Shown: positions 21,939 through 57,662 of the stretch, in pieces
Layout of the letters: the number at the start of each line of letters is the position of its first letter
Position numbering within the stretch: position 1 is the first letter of the stretch
Assembly: GCA_903875465.1 (NCBI GenBank)
Contig: CAIQWB010000029.1
Span: forward strand, 1 to 64,000
Reading direction: 5' to 3'
DNA from: an uncultured Verrucomicrobia subdivision 3 bacterium
GTDB taxonomy: Bacteria > Verrucomicrobiota > Verrucomicrobiia > Limisphaerales > UBA11358
DNA length: 64,000 nt
Position numbers and translations under genes: made by a program
Notes under the pieces: generated by a model
What the model saw: the letters and a program-made list of their open reading frames with translations, nothing else
Told to the model about the DNA's origin: nothing
Databases searched by the model: none

Positions 21939-22214
21939 CTAGCCGCCGGCAATGGCGGGGATGATGCTGATTTCGTCGCCGTCTTTGAGCGGGGTGGCGC
22001 GGTTTTGGAGGAAGCGGATGTCTTCCTCGTTCACATAGACGTTGACGAAGCGGCGGACCTCGCCTTTTTCATCGACGAGGCGTTCCTGGATGCCGGGGAA
22101 ACGGGTTTGCAACTCGACAATTGCGTCGCCGATATTGGTGGCGGTAATTTCAATGAGCTCCTCGTTGTTGGTCAACTTGCGGAGCGGGGTGGGGATGCGG
22201 ACTTTTTTTGGCAT
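21939..22214 (-). CDS. ThiS/MoaD-like sulfur-carrier protein (MetO-like)
   Basis: This 91-residue beta-grasp protein has the MoaD/ThiS pattern: RIPTPLRKLTNNEELIEI, a helix AIVELQTRFPGIQERL, RRFVNVYVNEEDIRF, LKDGDEISIIPAIAGG. It ends exactly in Gly-Gly, the terminus that an E1-like enzyme adenylates and converts to a thiocarboxylate. Similar carriers next to amino-acid synthases feed sulfide into cysteine or homocysteine synthesis (CysO, HcyS, MetO). Located 18 bp after the SnoaL-like gene and two genes behind the threonine-synthase homologue under a SAM-I riboswitch, it most likely supplies sulfur for homocysteine rather than for molybdopterin or thiamine. No activating ThiF/MoeB-type enzyme lies in the window. 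Confidence 0.87.
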   Translation of the reverse strand: MPKKVRIPTPLRKLTNNEELIEITATNIGDAIVELQTRFPGIQERLVDEKGEVRRFVNVYVNEEDIRFLQNRATPLKDGDEISIIPAIAGG

Positions 22215-22232: not shown

Positions 22233-22607
22233 TTACGACTTTACGGCAAGCGTTTTCGATCCCGGTGTAAACCAGGCACGGGTGATTTTACCCGCCAGCA
22301 CTTCGTAAATGGCCACCAGTTCCAGGGTGCCGGGGCCTTCGGGAAAGGTGCGGGTCACTTTTTCATGATCAATGACCAAGTTGCCTGAAACAATCCGATT
22401 GATCAGATGCGCGTGCAGGTTGGGCTCCTGGAAACGCGTGGCGAAGCGCTCCCGGATGGCGGCCGAACCGCTGGCCAGTAATTGGGACGGGTGCTCAAAT
22501 TGCTGGGCGCTCTCTGCATACGTGAGCATCAACGCATCCAAGTCGTGGGCGTTGTAGGCTTCCACCTGTCGTTGCACGACCGTAACGGGCTGTTGGTTTG
22601 GATTCAC
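22233..22607 (-). CDS. SnoaL-like (NTF2-fold) protein
   Basis: The 124-residue protein fits the SnoaL/ketosteroid-isomerase-like fold: VVQRQVEAYNAHDLDALMLTYAE is the usual N-terminal helix pair, followed by IRERFATRFQEPNLHAHLINRIVSGNLVIDHEKVTR and the closing strands LVAIYEVLAGKITRAWFTPG. Such proteins bind small molecules in a cone-shaped pocket; some are isomerases or hydrolases and many have no known role. It lies between the threonine-synthase homologue (31 bp upstream) and the sulfur-carrier gene (18 bp downstream), so it should be co-expressed under SAM control. A part in handling a pathway intermediate is a guess. Confidence 0.75.
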   Translation of the reverse strand: MNPNQQPVTVVQRQVEAYNAHDLDALMLTYAESAQQFEHPSQLLASGSAAIRERFATRFQEPNLHAHLINRIVSGNLVIDHEKVTRTFPEGPGTLELVAIYEVLAGKITRAWFTPGSKTLAVKS

Positions 22608-22638: not shown

Positions 22639-23895
22639 TTACACCCCGACTTTTTCCTCGTGCGCCAGCAGGGCCTCGAACTCGCGCAGGCTGGGTTTGA
22701 TCTCGCGCGGCTTGCCGCAATGACCCTGGACGGCATCCAGCGTCTTGAGACCATTTCCGGTCACGCAGATGACGGCGGAGGAATCGTGTGGGATCTTGCC
22801 GCAGGCGATCAGTTTTTTGGCCACGCCCACGGTCACGCCGCCGGCGGTTTCGGCAAAGATGCCCTCGGTCTCAGCCAGCAATTTGATCGCATCGCGGATT
22901 TCGTCATCGCTCACATCCTCGGAGGCGCCGGCAGTTTCCCGCATGACTTTGAGGGCGTAGAAGCCGTCGGCCGGGGTGCCGATGGCGAGGGATTTGGCAA
23001 TGGTATCCGGTTTGACGGGCTTGAAGAAATCCAGCCCCGCTTTTTGGGCGGTGGAAATGGGGGAGCAACCGGTGGCCTGGGCGCCGTGAATGTGGACTTC
23101 GCTCTCGGAGACCAGCCCGAGTTTGACAAATTCCTGATAGCCCTTGTGAATCTTGGTGAGCAAGGAGCCGGAAGCCATGGGAATGATGGTGTGCTGGGGC
23201 AGGCGCCAGCCGAGTTGCTCGGCGATTTCGTAGGCCATGCTCTTGGAGCCCTCGGCGTAGTATGGGCGCATATTGACGTTCACAAACGCCCAGCCGAATT
23301 TGCCGGCGATCTCGGCGCACAGGCGGTTTACTTCGTCGTAGTGGCCCTTGATGGCGATGACGTTGGCCCCGTAAACGAGGGAATTTAAAATCTTGCCCTG
23401 TTCCAAATCCGAGGGGATGAACACGTAGGATTTCAAGCCCACGCTGGCGGCGTTGGCGGCCACGGAATTGGCGAGGTTGCCGGTGGAGGCACAGGCGACG
23501 GTTTCAAAGCCCAGTTCGCGGGCGCGGCTGAGGGCCACGCTGACCACACGGTCCTTGAAGCTGAGCGTGGGGTAGTTGACGGCATCGTTCTTGATCCACA
23601 ATTCGCGGATACCCAGGCGTTTGGCCAGGCGGTCGGCCTTGATCAGCGGGGTGTAGCCCACCTGGACGCCCACAGTGGGGTCCTTGGCCACGGGCAGAAG
23701 CTCGCGGTAACGCCACATGGTTTTGGGGCGTGATTGAATCGCCGCCCGGGTGAGCGACTTTTTGATGCGGTCATAATCGTAGGCGACTTCCAGGGGGCCG
23801 AAATCGTATTCACAGACGTGAGTCGCGGCAAGGGGATATTCCCGGCCGCACTCACGGCATTTCAACGCCTTCATGAAACTATCGTGCTTTTCCAT
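22639..23895 (-). CDS. Threonine-synthase homologue, probable O-phosphohomoserine-dependent homocysteine synthase (MetM-like)
   Basis: A 418-residue fold-type II PLP enzyme. The N-terminus has a small metal-ribbon-like part (C13, C16, C28), then a threonine-synthase body: VGYTPLIKADRLAKRLG, the PLP lysine K114 in NYPTLSFKDRVVS, the phosphate-binding ACASTGNLANSVAA and the C-terminal AETAGGVTVGVAKKL and CVTGNGLKTLD. By sequence alone it would be named thrC. Context argues otherwise: it is headed by a SAM-I riboswitch, which controls methionine and SAM genes, and clustered with a Gly-Gly sulfur carrier and a NIL protein. Streptomyces MetM, a threonine-synthase homologue, makes homocysteine from O-phosphohomoserine with the carrier MetO. 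The same role is inferred here; true threonine synthase cannot be excluded. Confidence 0.85.
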   Translation of the reverse strand: MEKHDSFMKALKCRECGREYPLAATHVCEYDFGPLEVAYDYDRIKKSLTRAAIQSRPKTMWRYRELLPVAKDPTVGVQVGYTPLIKADRLAKRLGIRELWIKNDAVNYPTLSFKDRVVSVALSRARELGFETVACASTGNLANSVAANAASVGLKSYVFIPSDLEQGKILNSLVYGANVIAIKGHYDEVNRLCAEIAGKFGWAFVNVNMRPYYAEGSKSMAYEIAEQLGWRLPQHTIIPMASGSLLTKIHKGYQEFVKLGLVSESEVHIHGAQATGCSPISTAQKAGLDFFKPVKPDTIAKSLAIGTPADGFYALKVMRETAGASEDVSDDEIRDAIKLLAETEGIFAETAGGVTVGVAKKLIACGKIPHDSSAVICVTGNGLKTLDAVQGHCGKPREIKPSLREFEALLAHEEKVGV

Positions 23896-23961: not shown

Positions 23962-23993
23962 AAAAAAGCCCCATCTCAAGCATGAGAAGGGGC
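23962..23993 (-). terminator. Rho-independent terminator of the SAM-I riboswitch
   Basis: Read on minus, GCCCCTTCTCA (23993-23983) pairs with TGAGATGGGGC (23978-23968), with one internal T-T mismatch, around a 4-nt loop, and is followed by TTTTTT (23967-23962). Its 5' arm contains CTTCTCAT (23989-23982), the exact complement of the 3' strand of the riboswitch P1 helix (ATGAGAAG, 24019-24012). The two structures are therefore mutually exclusive: SAM binding keeps P1 closed and the terminator forms; without SAM the P1 strand makes an antiterminator. It ends about 66 nt before the first gene. Confidence 0.92.
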
Positions 23994-24011
23994 CGACAAA
24001 AAGTGCGTGCG

Positions 24012-24133
24012 CTTCTCATTTTCCCTGAACGCACCCGCATTCAGGCTGGAATTGGCACCTGCGTTAAAATCGAAATTTTAACCGGTTGCCGTGGCTTCAT
24101 TGGGCCAGTCCCTCTGCCACTCTGCATGAGATT
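24012..24133 (-). promoter_or_regulatory. SAM-I (S-box) riboswitch aptamer
   Basis: The minus strand shows every conserved S-box part in order: P1 5' strand TCTCAT (24131-24126), GCAGAGTGGCAGAGGGACTG, GGCCCAATGAAGCC and CGGCAACC, a P3 helix GGTTAAAAT-TTCG-ATTTTAAC, the block AGGTGCCAATTCCAGC, a P4 helix TGAATGC-GGGT-GCGTTCA, and GGGAAAATGAGAAG, which closes P1. The core GAGGGACTGGCCCAATGAAG lies at 24095-24114. It precedes an intrinsic terminator and the threonine-synthase homologue, so high SAM should stop transcription of the four-gene cluster. Promoter elements must lie upstream of 24133 on minus, inside the spacer to the divergent gene at 24302; none was clearly identified. Confidence 0.96.
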
Positions 24134-28828: not shown

Positions 28829-28965
28829 ATCCGGGTATTTGCCATGGCACCGGACTGTCACGCGGGCGTTGCCACATTGTCACTAAAAACTCGTGGAGCC
28901 GTGCGGCCAATTCTGGCAGACATAAGGTTTAAACAAATCATCATGAATGTTTGCTCGAACTGGCC

Positions 28966-30168
28966 ATGACCGCCCAACCTAAAACCGACCACGGCAAGCG
29001 AGACCTGGCGCAACAATTTTTCAAAGCCACGAGCGACCTGGTCTTTCACCATGTTCATGGCAGCCAGCTCATTTACAATACCTGCTGGGAAGATCCCCGG
29101 CTGGACCGGCATTTGATGAAACTGGACGCGCAGAGCCGGGTGGTGATGATCACCAGCGCGGGGTGTAATGCCCTGGACTATTTGTTGGATAACCCGGCGG
29201 AGATTCACACGGTGGATGTGAATTACCGGCAGAATGCCCTGCTGGAGTTAAAACTGGCGTTGCTGCGCCGGGGCAAGTTCATGGACTTTTTCGAGTATTT
29301 TGGCATTGGTTCGCATGGGGATCACCAGGCTATTTACAAATCCCTGCAACCGGACCTGCCGGAAGTGGCGCGCAAGTTTTGGGACCGGCACCTGCATTTT
29401 TTTAACCCGGGAGGCATCAAGAAATCCTTTTATTATCATGGCACATCGGGCGCGGCGGCCTGGCTGCTGGGGGGAGTGCTCTTCAAGGCCAAACCCAACA
29501 TCAAGAACTTCGCGATGTGCCTGCTGGATGCCAAAACCCAGGAGGAGCAAAAGGAGATTTACACGCTGCTGGAGCCAAAAATCTGGGGTAATCTGAGCAA
29601 CTGGCTGATCCGCCAGCGCATGGTGATGACCCTGCTGGGGGTGCCCGGGCCGCAGATCAAATTGATTGAGAATCATTATCCGGGTGGTTTGGAAAGCTAT
29701 ATCAAGGACAAGTTGCGCCATGTGATGACGGAACTGCCGACGGCGGATAATTATTTTTGGCGGGTTTACATCACCGGTTCCTACACGATGGATTGCTGCC
29801 CCAATTACCTGCGGAAAGCGAATCATGAGGTGCTCAAGGAACGCAACGGACGGATCAAGACCCATACCAGCACCCTTACGCAATTTCTCCAGAAGCATCC
29901 GGGTATTTACAGCCATTATGTGTTGCTGGACCATCAGGACTGGCTGGCCTGGCATGATGCGGCAGCGCTGCTGGAGGAATGGGAATTGATCCTGGCCAAC
30001 AGCCGGCCGGGTACCAAGATTCTCATGCGTTCCGCCGGTCTGGATCTGAGTTTCGTGCCGGCGGCGGTGCTGGAGCGCTTGCGTTTCTTCCCGGAAATCA
30101 CCGAGCGGCTGCATCTGACCGACCGGGTGGGCACCTATGGCAGCCTCCATTTCGCCGAAGTCAAATGA
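28966..30168 (+). CDS. btaA: BtaA-like S-adenosylmethionine:diacylglycerol 3-amino-3-carboxypropyltransferase
   Basis: ATG at 28966 gives 400 residues; a TTG five codons upstream is less likely. The DUF3419/BtaA family is recognised by LIYNTCWEDPRLDRHLMKL near the start, then a SAM-binding Rossmann part (VVMITSAGCNALDYLL, IHTVDVNYRQNALLELK), ARKFWDRHLHFFNPG, and a C-terminal methyltransferase-like half (YSHYVLLDHQDWLAW, LMRSAG). BtaA moves the 3-amino-3-carboxypropyl group of SAM to diacylglycerol, giving diacylglyceryl homoserine, first step to the betaine lipid DGTS that replaces phospholipids under phosphate limitation. Its stop overlaps the start of the next gene, a BtaB-like methyltransferase, which supports the assignment. 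Confidence 0.88.
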   Translation: MTAQPKTDHGKRDLAQQFFKATSDLVFHHVHGSQLIYNTCWEDPRLDRHLMKLDAQSRVVMITSAGCNALDYLLDNPAEIHTVDVNYRQNALLELKLALLRRGKFMDFFEYFGIGSHGDHQAIYKSLQPDLPEVARKFWDRHLHFFNPGGIKKSFYYHGTSGAAAWLLGGVLFKAKPNIKNFAMCLLDAKTQEEQKEIYTLLEPKIWGNLSNWLIRQRMVMTLLGVPGPQIKLIENHYPGGLESYIKDKLRHVMTELPTADNYFWRVYITGSYTMDCCPNYLRKANHEVLKERNGRIKTHTSTLTQFLQKHPGIYSHYVLLDHQDWLAWHDAAALLEEWELILANSRPGTKILMRSAGLDLSFVPAAVLERLRFFPEITERLHLTDRVGTYGSLHFAEVK

Positions 30169-30812
30169 GCCACTCCTCTTCCAACGCGGCCCCGGCAGGT
30201 AAACTAACCCCGATCGAAAAATATTACCGGCTGCATGCGCGGATTTACGATGCCACGCGCTGGACCTTTTTGTTCGGCCGCACGGCGATTTTGGCGGATA
30301 TTGCGATTCGGCAAAAGCCCGTGCGGATTTTGGAGGTGGGGTGTGGCACGGGGAAAAATCTCGTGAGCCTGGGGCGGCGCTTCCCACAGGCGGCCATTAC
30401 GGGGCTGGACCTGGCTGAACCCATGCTGGAGGTGGCGCGGCGCAAGACCGCGCACATGGGCTCTCGTGTGGGCTTGCTGCACCGGTCCTACAACGCGCCG
30501 GTAGGGGATCTGGCGGGGTACGATCTGGTGCTCTTCTCCTACGCGCTTTCGATGTTTAACCCGGGTTTTGAAACTGCCATCCAGGCGGCGGCGGCCGATC
30601 TGGCCCCGGGCGGGTGCATTGCGGTGGTGGATTTTCATGCCACCCGGTTCGCTTTATTTGAACGCTGGATGGGAGTGAATCATGTGCGGATGAACGCGCA
30701 GTTGCGTCCCTGCCTGCAAGCCCACTTTATGCCGATGCTGGACCGGGTGGACCATGCCTATGGTGGAGTATGGCAGTATTTGACGTTTATTGGCCGCAAG
30801 CGGGCTAATTAA
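30165..30812 (+). CDS. btaB: BtaB-like SAM-dependent N-methyltransferase
   Basis: Starts at ATG 30165 in the ATGA overlap with btaA. The 215-residue class I methyltransferase has motif I ILEVGCGTGKNL, motif II ITGLDLAEPMLEVARRK, motif IV YDLVLFSYALSMF and a downstream LAPGGCIAVVDFH. BtaB methylates the amino group of diacylglyceryl homoserine three times to make DGTS. The family is hard to separate from other small methyltransferases by sequence alone, so the call rests on tight coupling with btaA. Its 3' end overlaps the convergent DUF1080 gene by 8 bp. Confidence 0.82.
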   Translation: MSHSSSNAAPAGKLTPIEKYYRLHARIYDATRWTFLFGRTAILADIAIRQKPVRILEVGCGTGKNLVSLGRRFPQAAITGLDLAEPMLEVARRKTAHMGSRVGLLHRSYNAPVGDLAGYDLVLFSYALSMFNPGFETAIQAAAADLAPGGCIAVVDFHATRFALFERWMGVNHVRMNAQLRPCLQAHFMPMLDRVDHAYGGVWQYLTFIGRKRAN

Positions 30813-49025: not shown

Positions 49026-52000
49026 ATGATTTTAATTGATGAACCGTCGGCGCAAACACGCCGAAATCATCGGAGAAATGTTGTGAAACAGATTATGCAA
49101 AAATTCGCAGTAGGTGGGTTGCCAGTCCTCCTTGGAAAGACCTTTTTGAATCCGCTTTGTTTGCTGCTTGGTATCGCCAGTCTAACTGTCGTTACGGCTA
49201 ATGCCCAGCCAACCACGCCGCCAGCCAACGATAATTTTGCCAATGCTCTCAGCATTTCTGGTTTGACCGGTTCCGTAGATGCCAATAATTCCGGTGCGAC
49301 CACCGAGGTTGGTGAAACGCTTTCCATTATCACTGACGATAATTCTTTTGGTGTGCCGGTGGGTGGGTCTATTTGGTATTCTTGGACCGCTTCAGCCACT
49401 GGCAATGTCACGTTTAATACCTTCCCGACCAATGGTGCTGGATTCGACACGGTACTTGCAGTTTATACTGGAAACGGTCTCGCAAATTTAAACCTGGTAG
49501 CCGCGAATGATGAGGCGACTGGCATAACCAATGGAACAAGCCTGGTCACATTTTATGCTATTTCGGGGACAACTTATTTTGTGGAAGTAGCTGGTTACGC
49601 TGGACCTCCACTGGTTCAGGGGGATACTTCACTTAATTGGACCCAGACGGTGCCAGGGTTTTCTGCAGGTACATTTCGCCTTACCTCTACAAGTTACACT
49701 GTGGGTAATTTTGAATCATTTTCAGTTTATGGACCCAAACCTCCAATGAGTGGCTCGGCCGGCGCCCGGATCTCAGTTACTCGTGTGGGTGGCGCGGCGG
49801 GTCGTGTGGAAGTTCATTACAGTGTGACCAACAATCCGTTGGTGCCCTTGCAGGTCAGTTCTAACGTGGATATTGAAAACACCTTAGTGCAAAATTTTGA
49901 CAGTAATGGTGTTCTTACCACCTACCAAGAGGTGTTTTCCACAAGTTATTCGACTAATACTACTATTCAGTATTTTAACGGCACTACTTTTACAAATATA
50001 CCCTGCGGGCTTCAAGGCTACACAGTTATCTTGAATGTCGCCAATGGTGCAACTAATCAGAATATTTTACCTTATCCTGGTGGCTATCCCCCGAATAATA
50101 CCAATCTCGTTACGAGTGTAACTAACTCTGACGGGTCGGTAACCGTCACCACGTTGCAATCCACAAATATTACTTATCCCGCAGTGTTTTATGCGCCGTC
50201 GGCCATTGCCTTTAATCCCAAAAACGCAAGTGGCCCTTGGGATTTCGTGCCCACGACTGGAATACTTACCTTTAATGATTTCGAGATGACTAAAGATATC
50301 TTTGTTACTCTAAGTACAAATGATTATTTATCCACGACTCCTATTTATTTCCTCGTAAATCTGGATTCGGTTAACCTGGCTACCAACGAGTTGCAATCCA
50401 TTCCTGCTCCAAGCATTGATTCCGCTCGCAACTCTGCCAAAGTTAATGTTGAGCAAATCTGGCAAGATCCCTATCCAAACTCCGGCCTCTGTCCGGGGCT
50501 CCAAAGTTATCAAGTCACTAATTTGATAAATTTTGTTCGTTCCACAGTTTCCGTTGATCGCAATGGCACGAATGCTTCAATAGCGGTGGTTCTTAACACA
50601 GTTAATGCATCGCAAGGGGCCACGATGTATTATTCCATTGATTTCGGCACGGCCAATGCCAATTATAATACCTTTTCTGCTCAATCTGGATCTGATTACG
50701 CTATTCCTGATAATGCGTTGAAATCTGTCCCCGAAGGGGTGGTTGATTTCAATAATACCGGCATTGGGTCGGTAAGCTGGTCACCCTATGATCCGAGCCC
50801 CATTAAGTATATAAATGTGCCAATTGTAAATAATGGCACTGTAGAGTTTAATAAAGATTTTTTGGTTCAATTCTATGCTGACACCGCTCACACATGGAAT
50901 AATGCTCTGCCTGGTAATATTTCGCAATGTACCGTGACGATTCTCTTTGACAAACAGCCTGCAGGGGCTGGCGATCGTACCTACAACATGGATAATGTGG
51001 TTACTACCATTCCTCCTTATAATAAAAATCCTGGATTAAACGGTCCAGCCTACGCTGTCTTCGTGCAACCAGATGGCAATTCACTTATTGGCGGTGATTT
51101 CTCCTCTTACGACTCCACCAATAGTTATAATATTGCCCGTGCTTTGAGCAACGGTCAGCCAGATGCTGCGTTCATTCGAAATACCGGGTCGGGTGCTGAT
51201 AGCTTCATTGATGCGATTGCTCTTGATAGTTCAAACAATATTTTTATTGGTGGTGCTTTTGCTTCATTCAATGGAATTCAAAGGAACGGGATCGCTCATC
51301 TCAATTCCAATGGTACTCTGGACAATTCGATTTTCCTGCCTGGTTCGGGGGCGAATGGAACTGTCACGGCCATACTTGTTCAAACCAATGGGCAGCTGTT
51401 AGTTGCCGGCAATTTCTCCTCTTTCAATAATACGAATCGTAATTGTATTGCTCGTTTGAATCCCGATGGTTCAGTGGATTCTACATTTGATGCGGGAACC
51501 GGTCCCCTGGATGAATATAGCCCGGGCAACACGGTAATTAATTCCCTAGCCCTGCAGGCTGATGGGCGAATTCTTGTTGGCGGTGATTTCACAACGTTCG
51601 ATGGCGTTACGCGGAATTATTTAGCCCGCTTGAATTTTGACGGTACTTTGGATGCGAGCTTTGACACTGGTGATGGGGCTAATGACGTCGTTAATGGCGT
51701 GGCGGTTGACACCAATGGTTTAATAGTCGCAGTAGGTCCATTCACGAAATTCGGTGCTCTTGGAACTAGTGCGGGAATCACCCGTTTGGAAACCAATGGT
51801 GTTTTGGACACAACTTTTAATGTCGGTTCAGGGGTTAACGATGCAGTTAATTCGGTTGTGCTTCAGACTGACGGTCGAATTATAATTGGCGGTAGTTTCA
51901 CTTCCTTTAATCAGACCAGACGTGTTGGAATTGCCCGCTTGAATCCTGATGGTTCCTTGGATACCAGCTTCATGGATACTGCTTACAATCAGTTTGCCGG

Positions 52001-55000
52001 TGTCGTGAATCCCATTTTTAATCCGGATATTAATCCCAATAATTCGGTTTACTCTCTTTCTTTGCAACCTGATGGCGGGGTAATCATCGGCGGTTCCTTT
52101 AGCCAAGTCGGAGGTGGTAGCACCCGGGCATCGCTTCTGCCGCGGGGTAATGTCGCTCGTTTGATTGGCGGTGCCACCCCTGGACCCGGTAATATTGGGC
52201 TTGCTTTGACCAGCTATATTGCTGACGCGGCGAACAATGGTTCTAATACAAACTCCACCAGCACCATAACCGTGACTCGTTCCAACGGCATTCTGGGACC
52301 GGCATCTGCCACGGTTGCCCCGGTCACCTTGCCTACCGGACCAGGTGCTGCCATTTATGGCACGGATTTCTTGTTCAACGCGGCTCAAGTTAATTATGGC
52401 ACTACCTGGGCAAATACTTGGATGTTGAGCGACGGTGTGGCAGGAACGAATAGCGCTACGACGGTAACCGTTTACAACAATAACAGGCCTAATGCGGTTC
52501 TCGATTTGGAAGTTACCGCCCCGGTTGGCCAGGACATCTTTTTTCTTGGTGGCAGCAGTGCTAATAAAAACACGGGATTGGGGATTTTTAGTCCTGCCTA
52601 TGGGGAACAAGATGGTGAAAACATTCCGCTTGGTGTGGCCTTGGGTCAATCCCTTTCACCGCTCACGATTATTCACAAACTTCCTCAACCGGGGGTGTTG
52701 AGTTTTACCACTCCGACTTACACAACGAATGAAGGTTCAGGAACCGCGATCATCAATGTATATCGTGCGAATGGAAGTGATGGCCAAGTTTCTGTTTTCT
52801 ACAAAACCGTCGATGGATCCGCCAAGGCCGGTATTGATTATGTTTCTTCCAGCGGCAAATTAACTTTTAATGCTGGTATAACGAATCAAGTTTTTAAAGT
52901 GACTCTTCTGAATAACGGAATAAGCCAGCCTGATCGCTTCATTAATCTCGTTCTCTATACCACCTCAGGCGGTGCCACCTTAAGCGCATTGCCGGGCGGA
53001 ACCAATGCCCAAATTATTCTGATTAATAATAATTACGCTTACGGTAATGTTAGTTTTGCCGGCGGTTTGTCGGTTATCAATGGTTCGACCAACGTAATGA
53101 CGTATGGTACCAATGAAAATTCTGGCTCAGCACTCGTTACTATAACTCGTCAGGGGGGTAGTTCCGGGGTTTTGAGTGTGAATGTAGCATCAAGCGATGT
53201 CACTGCTGTCAATGGCGTTAATTATACTGGTTTTACCAATGTTTTAACCTGGCAAAACCAGCAAGCACAGCCACAAACCATTGTTGTTCCGGTAAAGCAA
53301 GATGGGGTTTACACCGCAAATTTGACCGCCAAGCTAAGGATCTTCAATGCTACGGTGAATGGAGTGGTCACCACCCAAGCGCTTGGTGGAGTTTCCATTA
53401 CCGGCTCGCTCATCATCAGCAATGTTGATTATCCTGGTAAAATGGAATTTAGCGCTCCAACTTATACTTTTAATGAGAACGGTGGCTCTGCCATTATTCC
53501 AGTGATTCGGACCGGTGGTACCGCAGGTACCATTGCCAACCAGTTTTCCACAGTGGATGGCACTGCTATCGCTGGAAATCAGTATGTGGCAACCAATGGA
53601 ACCATCACACTTACCAATGGTCAAGTCAGTGCGATTTTTCGTGTGCCGATTATAGATAACTTGGTTCCGGATACAAATTATCAATTGTCAGTTGTTTTGA
53701 AGAATCAAACCACCAGTGATTTCTTGGGCGATCCTTCAACAGCGACACTGAATATTATCAACAATGAGACCTACAATTATCCTCCTGGTCAAATTGACAC
53801 CCAGTACAATCCTTTGGCCGGGTTCAGTGGTCCCGTGTTCGCCCTTGCATTGCAGCCTTCCAACGGAAAGCTGCTGGTAGGCGGCGGTTTTACCAATGCA
53901 AATGGTGTTGCCCGCAATCGTATTGCCCGTTTGAACACGGATGGCACCTTGGATCAAAAGTTTTCTTCCTATCTACCCGGTCAAGGGGCCAGTGACGCGA
54001 TTCGATCCATTTTAGTTGAATCCAATGGAACGATTTTAGTTGGTGGCTTTTTCACCAATTTCAACGGGGTGACGCTTAATCGAATTGCCCGTTTAACTTA
54101 CAGTGCCGGGTTGGACAGCACCTTTAATCCGGGTTCTGGGGTGGATGCTCCAATCTACGCCTTTGCCCAATACACAAATTCCAGTCTGAATGGTATTTAC
54201 GTCGCAGGTGCCTTCACAACTTACAACGGCAGCAGTCGCAACGCGATAGCACGTATCAATGAAAATGGGACCATTGATCAAAATTTTAAACCAGGAACTG
54301 GAGCCAACGGCACCGTTTATGCCTTGGGCGTGCAGGCTGATGGAAAAGTCGTCATCGGCGGTGATTTTACAATGGTTAACGGTGTTCCATTGCGTCATGT
54401 AGCCCGACTTAATATTGACGGTTCAGTCGATTATACGTTTGCAAACGCCCTTTACAGCGGCATTTGGGGAGCGAATGACTCAGTTCATGCCGTTGCTATT
54501 CAATTGGATGGCCATATTCTGATCGGGGGATTATTTACGAATGTGGATGGGGTCGCATTAAACCATATAGCTCGACTTAACACCGACGGAACTTTAGACA
54601 ACACCTTTACTCCAGGCATCGGGGCCAATGGGGATGTGCTTACCATTACCCCCCAAACTGATACACGCATCGTGGTTGGTGGCAATTTTACCTCTTTTAG
54701 TGGTGTCACTCGTAATCGCATTACCCGTTTAAATCCGGATGGTACAGTTGATCCCACCATTAATTTTGGCACGGGAGCAGATAGTTTCGTGGGTGCTTCG
54801 GTCATTCAGAATGACGGTAATATCATTCTGGGTGGTGGATTTCAGAATTTTGAAGGCACACCCCGCGCTAATTTGGTTCGTGTCTATGGTGGTTCCGCCG
54901 CGGGGTTTGGTACCTTTGAATTTTCCACGGCTAATTTTGCTTGTGACCAAACCAACGCATTTGCCGTCGTGAGCGTTCAGCGCTTAGGCGGCACCAGCGG

Positions 55001-57662
55001 TACGAATGCTGACGGCACGGGTGATTTATACATCAATTTGACCACGAGTGATGGTTCCGCTCTGGCTAATACGAATTATATTTCTGTTTCCACCAATCTT
55101 GATTTCCCGGCTGGGGAAGTTATTAGAAATGTGGCTATTCCCCTCATTAATGTTCCTGGAGTTTTTCCGAACCTTACTGTTAAACTCAGCATTACCAATA
55201 CGCCTCCGGCAGCGCTCGGGAATCAGCCCACGGCAACCCTGACCATTATCAACAGTCAAAGTGCTGTCAGCTTGCTTTCCTCCAACTATTCGGTAGCCAA
55301 AAATGCCATCAATGGCGCAGGGATTATCACCTTGGTTCGGCAGGGGAGCACCAATGGGACTTGCAGCGTTGACTTTCTGACGACAACCAACGGTTCTGCT
55401 TCCATTGGCAACAATTATACCCCGGTTCAAGGAACTGTCACATTCTATCCTGGTGATGCCATTAAAACCTTCCAAATACCAATTAATAATAACGGCGTAG
55501 CTGAAGGAAATAAGACTGTTACTTTTGTTCTTACAAATTCAATGGGAACTTACCTGTATAGCCCCTCTAACGCTGTTTTGACCATTATTGATACGGTCAA
55601 CGCGCCCGGTCAGCTCTATTTCGCAACGAACAGCTACACCGTTATGAAGCAAAGTGGTAATGCATATGTCACTGTGGGCCGTACCAATGGCTCCTCCGGC
55701 ACAGTGTATATAAGTTACAGCACGGTGCAGGGAACCGCCATACCTGGAGTCAACTATCAAACTTCCAGTGGCATCGTTGCCTTGGGTGATGGTGTGACCA
55801 GTCAAAATATTGCCATACCTCTCTATGACAATAATCTTGCCCAAGGGACAGTTAATTTTATTGTCAATCTATTCAACCCGGGTGGAGGGGCCACTTTGGC
55901 GGCGCCAACCAATGCCGTGGTTAATATTTTGGATCACAACGTTGGTTTCAGCTTTTTGAGCCAAACCAATTTCGCCAGTGAGTCCGATTCATCTGCTCTG
56001 GTATTCGTGCAACGCTTGGGTGCGACCAATCTGGCCTATTCAGTTAAATACGTAACCACAAATAACACTGCTCTGGCGGGAACCAACTACGTTGCCCTGG
56101 CCAACACCTTGAATTTCGCTCCCGGCGAGTCCCTTAAATCCATTTCCGTTCCTCTGATTTATTACCCACAAGTTACGGGCGATCTGCTATTTGGCTTGTT
56201 TTTGACGAATGCCACTGCTGGTGCGCAATTAGTTAATACTACCAACACACTTGTGATCATTCATGATTCCGATGCCGGATTAAATTTCAGCACTGCATCG
56301 ACCAATGTTCTTAAAAATGCTGGTTCAATCACGCTGCAAGTTATTTGTTCCAATCCTTCGGTTGAGCCGATCATTCTCAGCACCAATACCATTCCCTTGC
56401 AGGTCAATTATTTCACCACCAATGGCACGGCCATTTCCGGGATTGATTACACGGCGGTTAGCGGCACTCTCACTTTTACGAACGGAATTGGGACCAACCT
56501 GATTACGGTGCCGATTAAAAATAATGGGGTGCTCGAAGGCAATCGCACATTCAATGTGGTTCTCACAGCTCCTACTGCTCCGGGAAAACTCACACCCCCC
56601 AGTATTGAACAGGTCAATATTATTGACGTAAATTCTGCGGTGGAATTTTCCAGTCCGACCTACACGGTCCTCAAGTCTGGTGTGCAGGCAAATATCAACG
56701 TTTATCGTACCGGTTATACTGATAGTATTGTTTCAGTTAATTATACTGCAACCAATGGAACGGCTGTGGGCAACGTAAACTTCGTTCCTGTCAGCGGAAC
56801 CTTGGTGTTTACGAATGGTGTCACGGTTCAATCCTTTTCCGTTCCGATTATTTCAAGCACCGTGGTTCAGCCTGATTTAACTGTTCAACTGCTCCTTTCT
56901 GCCCCAAATAATGCCGGGTTAAGTTATCCTAGTTTTGCCTCGCTGACCATTATTGACCTCAGTGGAAGCTTGGTGGTTCCTGCCGGTGCCATGATGGTGG
57001 AACCCGAAGGTTATGTTCCGGCCAATGGTATCGTCGATCCAGGTGAGACTGACACCATTCGTTTCGGATTCCGTGCTGGCTCTGGGACCAATGTTGCCAA
57101 CTTGATTGCCACTTTGCTGGCTACCAATGGGATTTCTTCGCCCAGCGGCCCGCAAATTTATGGACCCTTGGTGGTTGGCGGTCCGGCGGTTTCCCGCCCC
57201 TTCACTTTGACTGCCAATGGAACGAATGGGCAGGCGATAGTCGCAACCTTTAAACTGATGGATGGTACTAAAAATATTGGCACGAATAACTTTACCTTTT
57301 ATTTGGGTACTTGGACTGCATCTTATTCTAATACAGCTCCCATCATCATTAATGACTTTACCACTGCTAGTCCGTATCCATCCTCGATCAATGTCAGTGG
57401 TTTGCCCGGTGTTATTCTTAAAACAACCGTTACCTTCACGAATCTGACCCACTCAGCGCCAGGTGATATCGGTGCTTTGGTGGTGGCTCCCAATCAACAG
57501 GATACCCTGCTGATGAATCGGGCTGGAGCGGCGAACAGTATCAAAAATGTCACCTTGATATTTGATGATTCGGCGTCCAACAGTCTGCCGAAAAATTTGC
57601 CGACCATAACCACCGGAACAAATAAGCCAACCGCTTATCCCACGATCAATACTTTCCCCTGA
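49026..57662 (+). CDS. Giant secreted protein (2878 aa): PPC, two delta-60 propeller blocks, many Calx-beta domains, truncated P domain
   Basis: Signal-like segment near 35-60 (LCLLLGIASLTVVTANA-QP), so ATG 49095 is another possible start. Order by residue, approximate: pre-peptidase C-terminal domain 66-215 (WYSWTASATG, FDTVLAVYTGNG); Calx-beta-like region 220-640; delta-60 block 670-1048 with seven or so units such as LQADGRILVGGDFTTFDGV and ARLNPDGSVDSTF; Calx-beta domains 1055-1580; second delta-60 block 1588-1955; further Calx-beta domains 1958-2648 (SVNYTATNGTAVGNVNFV-type units); then MVEPEGYVPANGIVDPGETD, and half a P domain 2772-2878 ending TINTFP. The P domain's remaining strands are missing and appear in the next gene. 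Likely a surface or secreted adhesin that binds calcium. Confidence 0.8.
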   Translation: MILIDEPSAQTRRNHRRNVVKQIMQKFAVGGLPVLLGKTFLNPLCLLLGIASLTVVTANAQPTTPPANDNFANALSISGLTGSVDANNSGATTEVGETLSIITDDNSFGVPVGGSIWYSWTASATGNVTFNTFPTNGAGFDTVLAVYTGNGLANLNLVAANDEATGITNGTSLVTFYAISGTTYFVEVAGYAGPPLVQGDTSLNWTQTVPGFSAGTFRLTSTSYTVGNFESFSVYGPKPPMSGSAGARISVTRVGGAAGRVEVHYSVTNNPLVPLQVSSNVDIENTLVQNFDSNGVLTTYQEVFSTSYSTNTTIQYFNGTTFTNIPCGLQGYTVILNVANGATNQNILPYPGGYPPNNTNLVTSVTNSDGSVTVTTLQSTNITYPAVFYAPSAIAFNPKNASGPWDFVPTTGILTFNDFEMTKDIFVTLSTNDYLSTTPIYFLVNLDSVNLATNELQSIPAPSIDSARNSAKVNVEQIWQDPYPNSGLCPGLQSYQVTNLINFVRSTVSVDRNGTNASIAVVLNTVNASQGATMYYSIDFGTANANYNTFSAQSGSDYAIPDNALKSVPEGVVDFNNTGIGSVSWSPYDPSPIKYINVPIVNNGTVEFNKDFLVQFYADTAHTWNNALPGNISQCTVTILFDKQPAGAGDRTYNMDNVVTTIPPYNKNPGLNGPAYAVFVQPDGNSLIGGDFSSYDSTNSYNIARALSNGQPDAAFIRNTGSGADSFIDAIALDSSNNIFIGGAFASFNGIQRNGIAHLNSNGTLDNSIFLPGSGANGTVTAILVQTNGQLLVAGNFSSFNNTNRNCIARLNPDGSVDSTFDAGTGPLDEYSPGNTVINSLALQADGRILVGGDFTTFDGVTRNYLARLNFDGTLDASFDTGDGANDVVNGVAVDTNGLIVAVGPFTKFGALGTSAGITRLETNGVLDTTFNVGSGVNDAVNSVVLQTDGRIIIGGSFTSFNQTRRVGIARLNPDGSLDTSFMDTAYNQFAGVVNPIFNPDINPNNSVYSLSLQPDGGVIIGGSFSQVGGGSTRASLLPRGNVARLIGGATPGPGNIGLALTSYIADAANNGSNTNSTSTITVTRSNGILGPASATVAPVTLPTGPGAAIYGTDFLFNAAQVNYGTTWANTWMLSDGVAGTNSATTVTVYNNNRPNAVLDLEVTAPVGQDIFFLGGSSANKNTGLGIFSPAYGEQDGENIPLGVALGQSLSPLTIIHKLPQPGVLSFTTPTYTTNEGSGTAIINVYRANGSDGQVSVFYKTVDGSAKAGIDYVSSSGKLTFNAGITNQVFKVTLLNNGISQPDRFINLVLYTTSGGATLSALPGGTNAQIILINNNYAYGNVSFAGGLSVINGSTNVMTYGTNENSGSALVTITRQGGSSGVLSVNVASSDVTAVNGVNYTGFTNVLTWQNQQAQPQTIVVPVKQDGVYTANLTAKLRIFNATVNGVVTTQALGGVSITGSLIISNVDYPGKMEFSAPTYTFNENGGSAIIPVIRTGGTAGTIANQFSTVDGTAIAGNQYVATNGTITLTNGQVSAIFRVPIIDNLVPDTNYQLSVVLKNQTTSDFLGDPSTATLNIINNETYNYPPGQIDTQYNPLAGFSGPVFALALQPSNGKLLVGGGFTNANGVARNRIARLNTDGTLDQKFSSYLPGQGASDAIRSILVESNGTILVGGFFTNFNGVTLNRIARLTYSAGLDSTFNPGSGVDAPIYAFAQYTNSSLNGIYVAGAFTTYNGSSRNAIARINENGTIDQNFKPGTGANGTVYALGVQADGKVVIGGDFTMVNGVPLRHVARLNIDGSVDYTFANALYSGIWGANDSVHAVAIQLDGHILIGGLFTNVDGVALNHIARLNTDGTLDNTFTPGIGANGDVLTITPQTDTRIVVGGNFTSFSGVTRNRITRLNPDGTVDPTINFGTGADSFVGASVIQNDGNIILGGGFQNFEGTPRANLVRVYGGSAAGFGTFEFSTANFACDQTNAFAVVSVQRLGGTSGTNADGTGDLYINLTTSDGSALANTNYISVSTNLDFPAGEVIRNVAIPLINVPGVFPNLTVKLSITNTPPAALGNQPTATLTIINSQSAVSLLSSNYSVAKNAINGAGIITLVRQGSTNGTCSVDFLTTTNGSASIGNNYTPVQGTVTFYPGDAIKTFQIPINNNGVAEGNKTVTFVLTNSMGTYLYSPSNAVLTIIDTVNAPGQLYFATNSYTVMKQSGNAYVTVGRTNGSSGTVYISYSTVQGTAIPGVNYQTSSGIVALGDGVTSQNIAIPLYDNNLAQGTVNFIVNLFNPGGGATLAAPTNAVVNILDHNVGFSFLSQTNFASESDSSALVFVQRLGATNLAYSVKYVTTNNTALAGTNYVALANTLNFAPGESLKSISVPLIYYPQVTGDLLFGLFLTNATAGAQLVNTTNTLVIIHDSDAGLNFSTASTNVLKNAGSITLQVICSNPSVEPIILSTNTIPLQVNYFTTNGTAISGIDYTAVSGTLTFTNGIGTNLITVPIKNNGVLEGNRTFNVVLTAPTAPGKLTPPSIEQVNIIDVNSAVEFSSPTYTVLKSGVQANINVYRTGYTDSIVSVNYTATNGTAVGNVNFVPVSGTLVFTNGVTVQSFSVPIISSTVVQPDLTVQLLLSAPNNAGLSYPSFASLTIIDLSGSLVVPAGAMMVEPEGYVPANGIVDPGETDTIRFGFRAGSGTNVANLIATLLATNGISSPSGPQIYGPLVVGGPAVSRPFTLTANGTNGQAIVATFKLMDGTKNIGTNNFTFYLGTWTASYSNTAPIIINDFTTASPYPSSINVSGLPGVILKTTVTFTNLTHSAPGDIGALVVAPNQQDTLLMNRAGAANSIKNVTLIFDDSASNSLPKNLPTITTGTNKPTAYPTINTFP

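Follow-up and report, generated by a model that had tools for sequence, protein, structure and literature searches.

SAM-I (S-box) riboswitches, represented by the Rfam family RF00162, combine a complete aptamer with a terminator and a P1-based antiterminator, and a sulfur amino acid operon lies downstream. In the CysO/CysM/Mec+ system of Mycobacterium tuberculosis, with a corresponding cluster in Tsukamurella, a fold-type II PLP enzyme stands beside a ThiS-like carrier ending in GG. In the HcyS/MetY pathway of Wolinella succinogenes, a protein-thiocarboxylate pathway to methionine, homocysteine is formed from the carrier thiocarboxylate by MetY, a PLP enzyme of fold type I (PF01053) that uses O-acetylhomoserine supplied by MetX. 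The protein thiocarboxylate pathway is mentioned by Price et al., as is the DUF39/HcyBio–NIL/ferredoxin–COG2122 pathway of Desulfovibrio and methanogens, by which homocysteine is made without MetX; these authors stated that at least one further homocysteine pathway is undiscovered, naming Aquifex, Pyrolobus and Acidimicrobium (PMC5764234). Methylacidiphilum fumariolicum, an autotroph that grows on methane, presents a similar problem, since work on its genome-scale model found no genomic evidence for the synthesis of L-homocysteine and hence of L-methionine, and orphan reactions were added to the model because no homocysteine gene was found (PMC12341988).

The locus described here lies in the window, i.e., the whole 64,000-nt stretch of DNA that was analysed, and consists of a predicted SAM-I riboswitch with a terminator-type platform (24132–23962, minus strand) and the operon behind it, whose first gene product is called ThrCL below (Table 1). 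The RNA is of a known kind and no different from known SAM-I riboswitches, whereas the regulated gene is annotated thrC and is not one of the recognised met genes. The pairing of a fold-type II PLP enzyme with a GG-ending ThiS-like carrier is shared with CysO/CysM/Mec+; however, the enzyme is ThrC-like rather than CysM, no JAMM hydrolase adjoins it, the control is by SAM-I, and the predicted substrate has four carbons. A carrier-thiocarboxylate route to homocysteine, as proposed here, would be shared with HcyS/MetY, but the genome contains neither MetY nor MetX, and the PLP partner of the carrier is neither CysM nor MetY but a ThrC-like enzyme, PF01053 giving no strong match in this genome. 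Finally, the locus resembles the DUF39 pathway in its NIL-domain protein and in the proposed synthesis of homocysteine without MetX, but here the NIL protein is stand-alone, without a ferredoxin domain, and DUF39 (PF01837) is absent both from this genome and from all of the 237 genomes of the class that were searched, control genomes being positive. Overall, we consider it likely that the locus is a SAM-repressed homocysteine synthase operon, in which ThrCL would probably act on O-phosphohomoserine and a carrier thiocarboxylate would serve as the sulfur source.

Table 1. Features of the riboswitch and operon (positions in the window)
Feature	Position	Strand	Remarks
SAM-I (S-box) riboswitch aptamer, predicted	24013..24132	-	RF00162 match; kept upstream of orthologues
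P1 3' strand ATGAGAAG, also antiterminator 5' half	24012..24019	-	Exact complement of 23989-23982
CTTCTCAT, antiterminator 3' half, within terminator 5' arm	23982..23989	-	Pairs with P1 3' strand
Intrinsic terminator, predicted	23962..23993	-	Hairpin 23993-23968 and six-U tract 23967-23962; fold -19.3 kcal/mol
ThrCL, threonine-synthase-like PLP enzyme, 418 aa, proposed homocysteine synthase	22639..23895	-	TIGR00260 282 bits, PF00291
SnoaL_2-domain gene	22233..22607	-	PF12680; insertion in the window's operon, between ThrCL and sulfur carrier
CysO-like ThiS/MoaD sulfur carrier, 91 aa, C-terminal AIAGG	21939..22214	-	PF02597
Stand-alone NIL-domain protein, 101 aa	21582..21887	-	PF09383

An earlier note made from the letters alone had read an S-box upstream of this gene and proposed a covariance-model search as a check. 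Infernal with RF00162 returned a match of 85.9 bits on the minus strand at 24132–24013 (gathering score 44.4, E = 6e-19), aligned over the full model from 1 to 108, i.e., a complete aptamer, which is the single match in the whole 5.3-Mb, 96% complete genome, a verrucomicrobial one of Limisphaerales type. The exact P1/antiterminator complementarity claimed in that note was found as well: the P1 3' strand (24019–24012) and the segment at 23989–23982 are exact reverse complements over 8 nt, and the terminator stem consists of 10 bp with one mismatch. With the respective pairs enforced, the antiterminator fold (−65.3 kcal/mol) and the fold with P1 and terminator (−64.7 kcal/mol) are approximately isoenergetic, which fits the expectation for a switch, and in the nascent transcript, before the terminator 3' arm has been made, the antiterminator is preferred (−52.1 vs. 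−46.5 kcal/mol). The exact 8-nt complement and the alternative folds thus describe an expression platform with a mutually exclusive antiterminator and terminator, and the on/off logic that had been read from the sequence stands. In 71 of 77 Limisphaerales leaders (near relatives, with the window's own leader counted in), a segment of 6 nt or more that complements the P1 3' strand is kept within 45 nt, compared with 8.3 leaders expected from shuffles, showing that the complementarity is beyond chance. Outside Limisphaerales, most leaders (L154–L173) lack this complement, suggesting that the switch mechanism in these diverse loci of the class probably differs and uses another expression platform.

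The conserved unit behind the riboswitch is ThrCL together with the ThiS-family carrier and the NIL gene. Among 88 related loci with enough flanking sequence, the carrier is downstream of ThrCL in 83 (at most 150 nt away in 58) and the NIL gene in 78, while no SnoaL_2 gene was found in 80 related loci, indicating that the latter is not a core part. Of the 77 near loci, 76 have the SAM-I aptamer ahead of the ThrCL orthologue, as do 17 of the 20 diverse loci that represent other families in the class. The same row is found in the actinobacterium Nonomuraea gerenzanensis, in which a SAM-I aptamer (68.7 bits) is followed by ThrCL (57% identity) and, adjacent to it, a ThiS-like carrier (47% identity) ending in AVAGG, so that the association of riboswitch, ThrCL and carrier extends over two phyla. 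In two genomes, G309 (L166) and G291 (L167), the operon of SAM-I, ThrCL, carrier and NIL gene runs on into cysH, cysD and cysN, the genes of sulfate activation and reduction. The carrier has CysO as its best PDB match (3dwg_C, from the M. tuberculosis CysM:CysO complex, 73.8 bits), and its C-terminal GG is retained in 87/87 homologues, both of which, together with the PF02597 domain, mark it as a CysO-type ThiS/MoaD protein. The best PDB match of the NIL protein is the C-terminal domain of the methionine importer MetN. No E1-type activating enzyme or JAMM hydrolase was found conserved in the neighbourhood of the operon.

Some related loci depart from this arrangement. Five (L019, L042, L049, L058 and L059) have ThrCL with neither carrier nor NIL gene nearby, although 2.5 kb or more of sequence is available downstream, and two 0.9-Mb genomes (L158 and L159, in G057 and G036) have kept ThrCL and the carrier and lost SAM-I, the operon NIL gene and PF02574. 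In three relatives (L022, L084 and L094), several Acido-Lenti-1 RNAs (RF01687) lie close to the operon. Elsewhere in the window, a gene for a DUF3419 protein is followed by an overlapping methyltransferase gene (28951–30812), i.e., the BtaA/BtaB arrangement of betaine lipid synthesis, a SAM-consuming pathway. A very long open frame of 2878 aa (49026–57662) belongs to a series of large frames whose codon-position GC is unusual and which perhaps encode repetitive surface proteins.

It had also been noted that the gene downstream of the riboswitch would be called thrC, and this is indeed what NCBIfam does, since ThrCL passes TIGR00260 with 282 bits (cut-off 167.1); with the closer model PRK08197 it scores 295, just below the cut-off of 303, and with the solved threonine synthases about 190 bits. 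ThrCL shares with class I threonine synthase (2zsj, 1uim, 6cgq and 2d1f) a homologous catalytic domain, the PLP lysine and the STGN motif, and is distinguished from it by replacements in the active-site region, an N-terminal extension with a CxxC motif and the gene context. When 101 ThrCL homologues were compared with these four solved enzymes (Thermus numbering), K61 (the PLP lysine), STGN, N154 and T317 were found to be kept, whereas T88L, S155N, R160Y, GNAGN to ASGSL, W249G and a replacement of N157 were each present in 99 to 101 of the 101. Residues invariant in class I ThrC are therefore missing from ThrCL in spite of the retained PLP lysine and STGN, and nearly all of the same replacements occur in the Nonomuraea protein. 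The changed residues include some of those that we take to lie near the substrate phosphate in Thermus threonine synthase (T88, S155, R160 and N188), suggesting that O-phosphohomoserine may not be the substrate of ThrCL. The alignment is uncertain in this stretch, where an additional residue and an arginine (R210) are found in ThrCL. An AlphaFold model built from 28 close homologues reached a pLDDT of 61, too poor for use. By its sequence, ThrCL is a fixed ThrC-like subfamily in which the PLP machinery is kept and many ThrC-invariant residues are replaced, and it is probably not a threonine synthase in function. ThrC paralogues with 35–38% identity to ThrCL were also seen on haloarchaeal plasmids (H2–H15).

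The gene complement of the genome bears on what ThrCL may do. A second thrC (TIGR00260, 241 bits) is located in a hom-thrC-lysC cluster, where it is accompanied by the genes for homoserine dehydrogenase and aspartate kinase. MetX was not found in this genome, and PF01053 gave only weak matches (best 33.7 bits), indicating that MetB, MetC, MetY and MetZ are missing. The DUF39 and MetX routes are ruled out for this genome by the absence of both. The presence of MetH shows that homocysteine is used in this organism, and the cysteine supply is covered by two CysK-type genes. The earlier note had remarked that SAM control would make little sense for threonine supply, which agrees with the evidence from the gene context, from the gene complement and from the active-site sequence, each of which points to homocysteine and methionine synthesis; a homocysteine synthase function for the thrC-like gene was not part of that note.

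A survey of 237 genomes of the class (at least 90% complete, the same draw in each search) showed that ThrCL and the MetX/MetY-type genes are nearly complementary. Using cut-offs of E ≤ 1e-100 for ThrCL, E ≤ 1e-60 for strong MetX and E ≤ 1e-50 for strong PF01053, ThrCL was found in 96 genomes, MetX in 145 and PF01053 in 147; 70 genomes have ThrCL only, 137 have MetX/PF01053 only, 26 have both and 4 have neither (Fisher p = 7e-33, although the genomes are related and phylogeny makes the counts non-independent). Of the families, 16 have ThrCL-only genomes throughout, 18 lack ThrCL throughout, 8 combine ThrCL with MetX and/or PF01053, and 12 are mixed. The MetH catalytic domain (PF02574) is present in 62 of the 70 ThrCL-only genomes and absent from 8, the two 0.9-Mb genomes among these. 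All 12 pMMO-bearing genomes of one family, which presumably is Methylacidiphilaceae as pMMO is its marker in this phylum, have ThrCL without MetX/PF01053. In a separate draw from the phylum, 25 SAM-I matches were sorted by the gene behind them: 9 lead into ThrCL, 12 into MetY-like genes, of which an HMM identified four as O-acetylhomoserine sulfhydrylase, and 1 into a MetX-like gene. Depending on the lineage, SAM-I thus lies ahead of ThrCL or of MetY, i.e., ThrCL occupies the position of MetY.

The substrate, sulfur donor and product of ThrCL are probably those of the following scheme. At low SAM, the antiterminator would form and the operon would be read, whereas at high SAM, P1 would be stabilised, the terminator would form and transcription would stop. 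Homoserine would be phosphorylated as in threonine synthesis, and ThrCL, a fold-type II PLP enzyme, would take O-phosphohomoserine, the only activated homoserine expected without MetX, and eliminate its phosphate on PLP. Rather than water at the beta carbon, ThrCL would add sulfur at the gamma carbon, so that the gamma-phosphate is replaced; by analogy with CysO/CysM, the most likely source of this sulfur would be the carrier, bearing it as a thiocarboxylate at its C-terminal Gly-Gly. MetH would then methylate homocysteine to methionine, and the NIL protein may have a role in methionine sensing or in assisting the transfer.

Homocysteine synthesis by ThrCL could also proceed with free sulfide, i.e., by direct sulfhydrylation as in the MetY and MetZ enzymes, which use sulfide, and the carrier would then be a sulfide store, a regulator or part of another pathway. 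This reading would account for the five loci that lack a nearby carrier and agrees with the lack of a conserved JAMM or E1 gene in the cluster; however, the carrier follows ThrCL in nearly all loci, is adjacent to it in Nonomuraea as well, is kept even in the 0.9-Mb genomes and invariably ends in GG, and we regard free sulfide as a plausible but rather unlikely sulfur source. The CysO-like carrier, the cysHDN genes that follow in G309 and the known mec-cysO-cysM arrangement, seen in Tsukamurella, might instead suggest that ThrCL and the carrier are a CysM/CysO-type cysteine synthase acting on O-phosphoserine under SAM control. This is very unlikely, since the genome already has two CysK-type genes, ThrCL belongs to the threonine synthase family rather than to CysK/CysM, the genes that it replaces are MetX/MetY, and MetY-like genes occupy its place behind SAM-I in sister lineages.

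The scores with TIGR00260 and the solved enzymes would suit an ordinary second threonine synthase placed under SAM, e.g., to balance the use of O-phosphohomoserine. Against this stand the thrC of the hom-thrC-lysC cluster, the replacement throughout the 101 homologues of residues invariant in the four solved enzymes, and a complementarity that is with MetX/MetY; moreover, SAM repression would lower threonine when methionine is plentiful, the opposite of plant threonine synthase, which is activated by SAM. A second threonine synthase is therefore most unlikely, and, like the cysteine synthase, it fits the complementarity data poorly. Returning to the carrier-dependent synthesis of homocysteine, we lean with modest confidence towards a widespread route, in which gamma-replacement on O-phosphohomoserine by ThrCL with a carrier thiocarboxylate would take the place of MetX and MetY across much of Verrucomicrobiae, with Methylacidiphilaceae and the 0.9-Mb, endosymbiont-size genomes among them, and would also occur in Actinomycetota. 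The 26 genomes that have ThrCL plus MetX and/or PF01053, the five ThrCL loci without a nearby carrier and the 8 of 70 ThrCL-only genomes without PF02574 count against the homocysteine reading.

The proposed pathway would be a new form of amino acid synthesis from protein thiocarboxylates, set apart by its PLP enzyme; the open-access papers searched gave no description of a ThrCL–carrier homocysteine pathway. If correct, the homocysteine reading would fill the published gap in Methylacidiphilum with a two- or three-gene candidate, and the ThrCL locus is a lead for the homocysteine gap in Aquifex, Pyrolobus and Acidimicrobium. Several methionine genes have been reported missing from the symbiont Xiphinematobacter (PMC7857533), and our guess is that the 0.9-Mb ThrCL genomes belong to it. 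If the homocysteine reading is right, very many genes annotated thrC are mis-annotated, the riboswitch being the clue that exposed this, and automated auxotrophy predictions for organisms with ThrCL are wrong.
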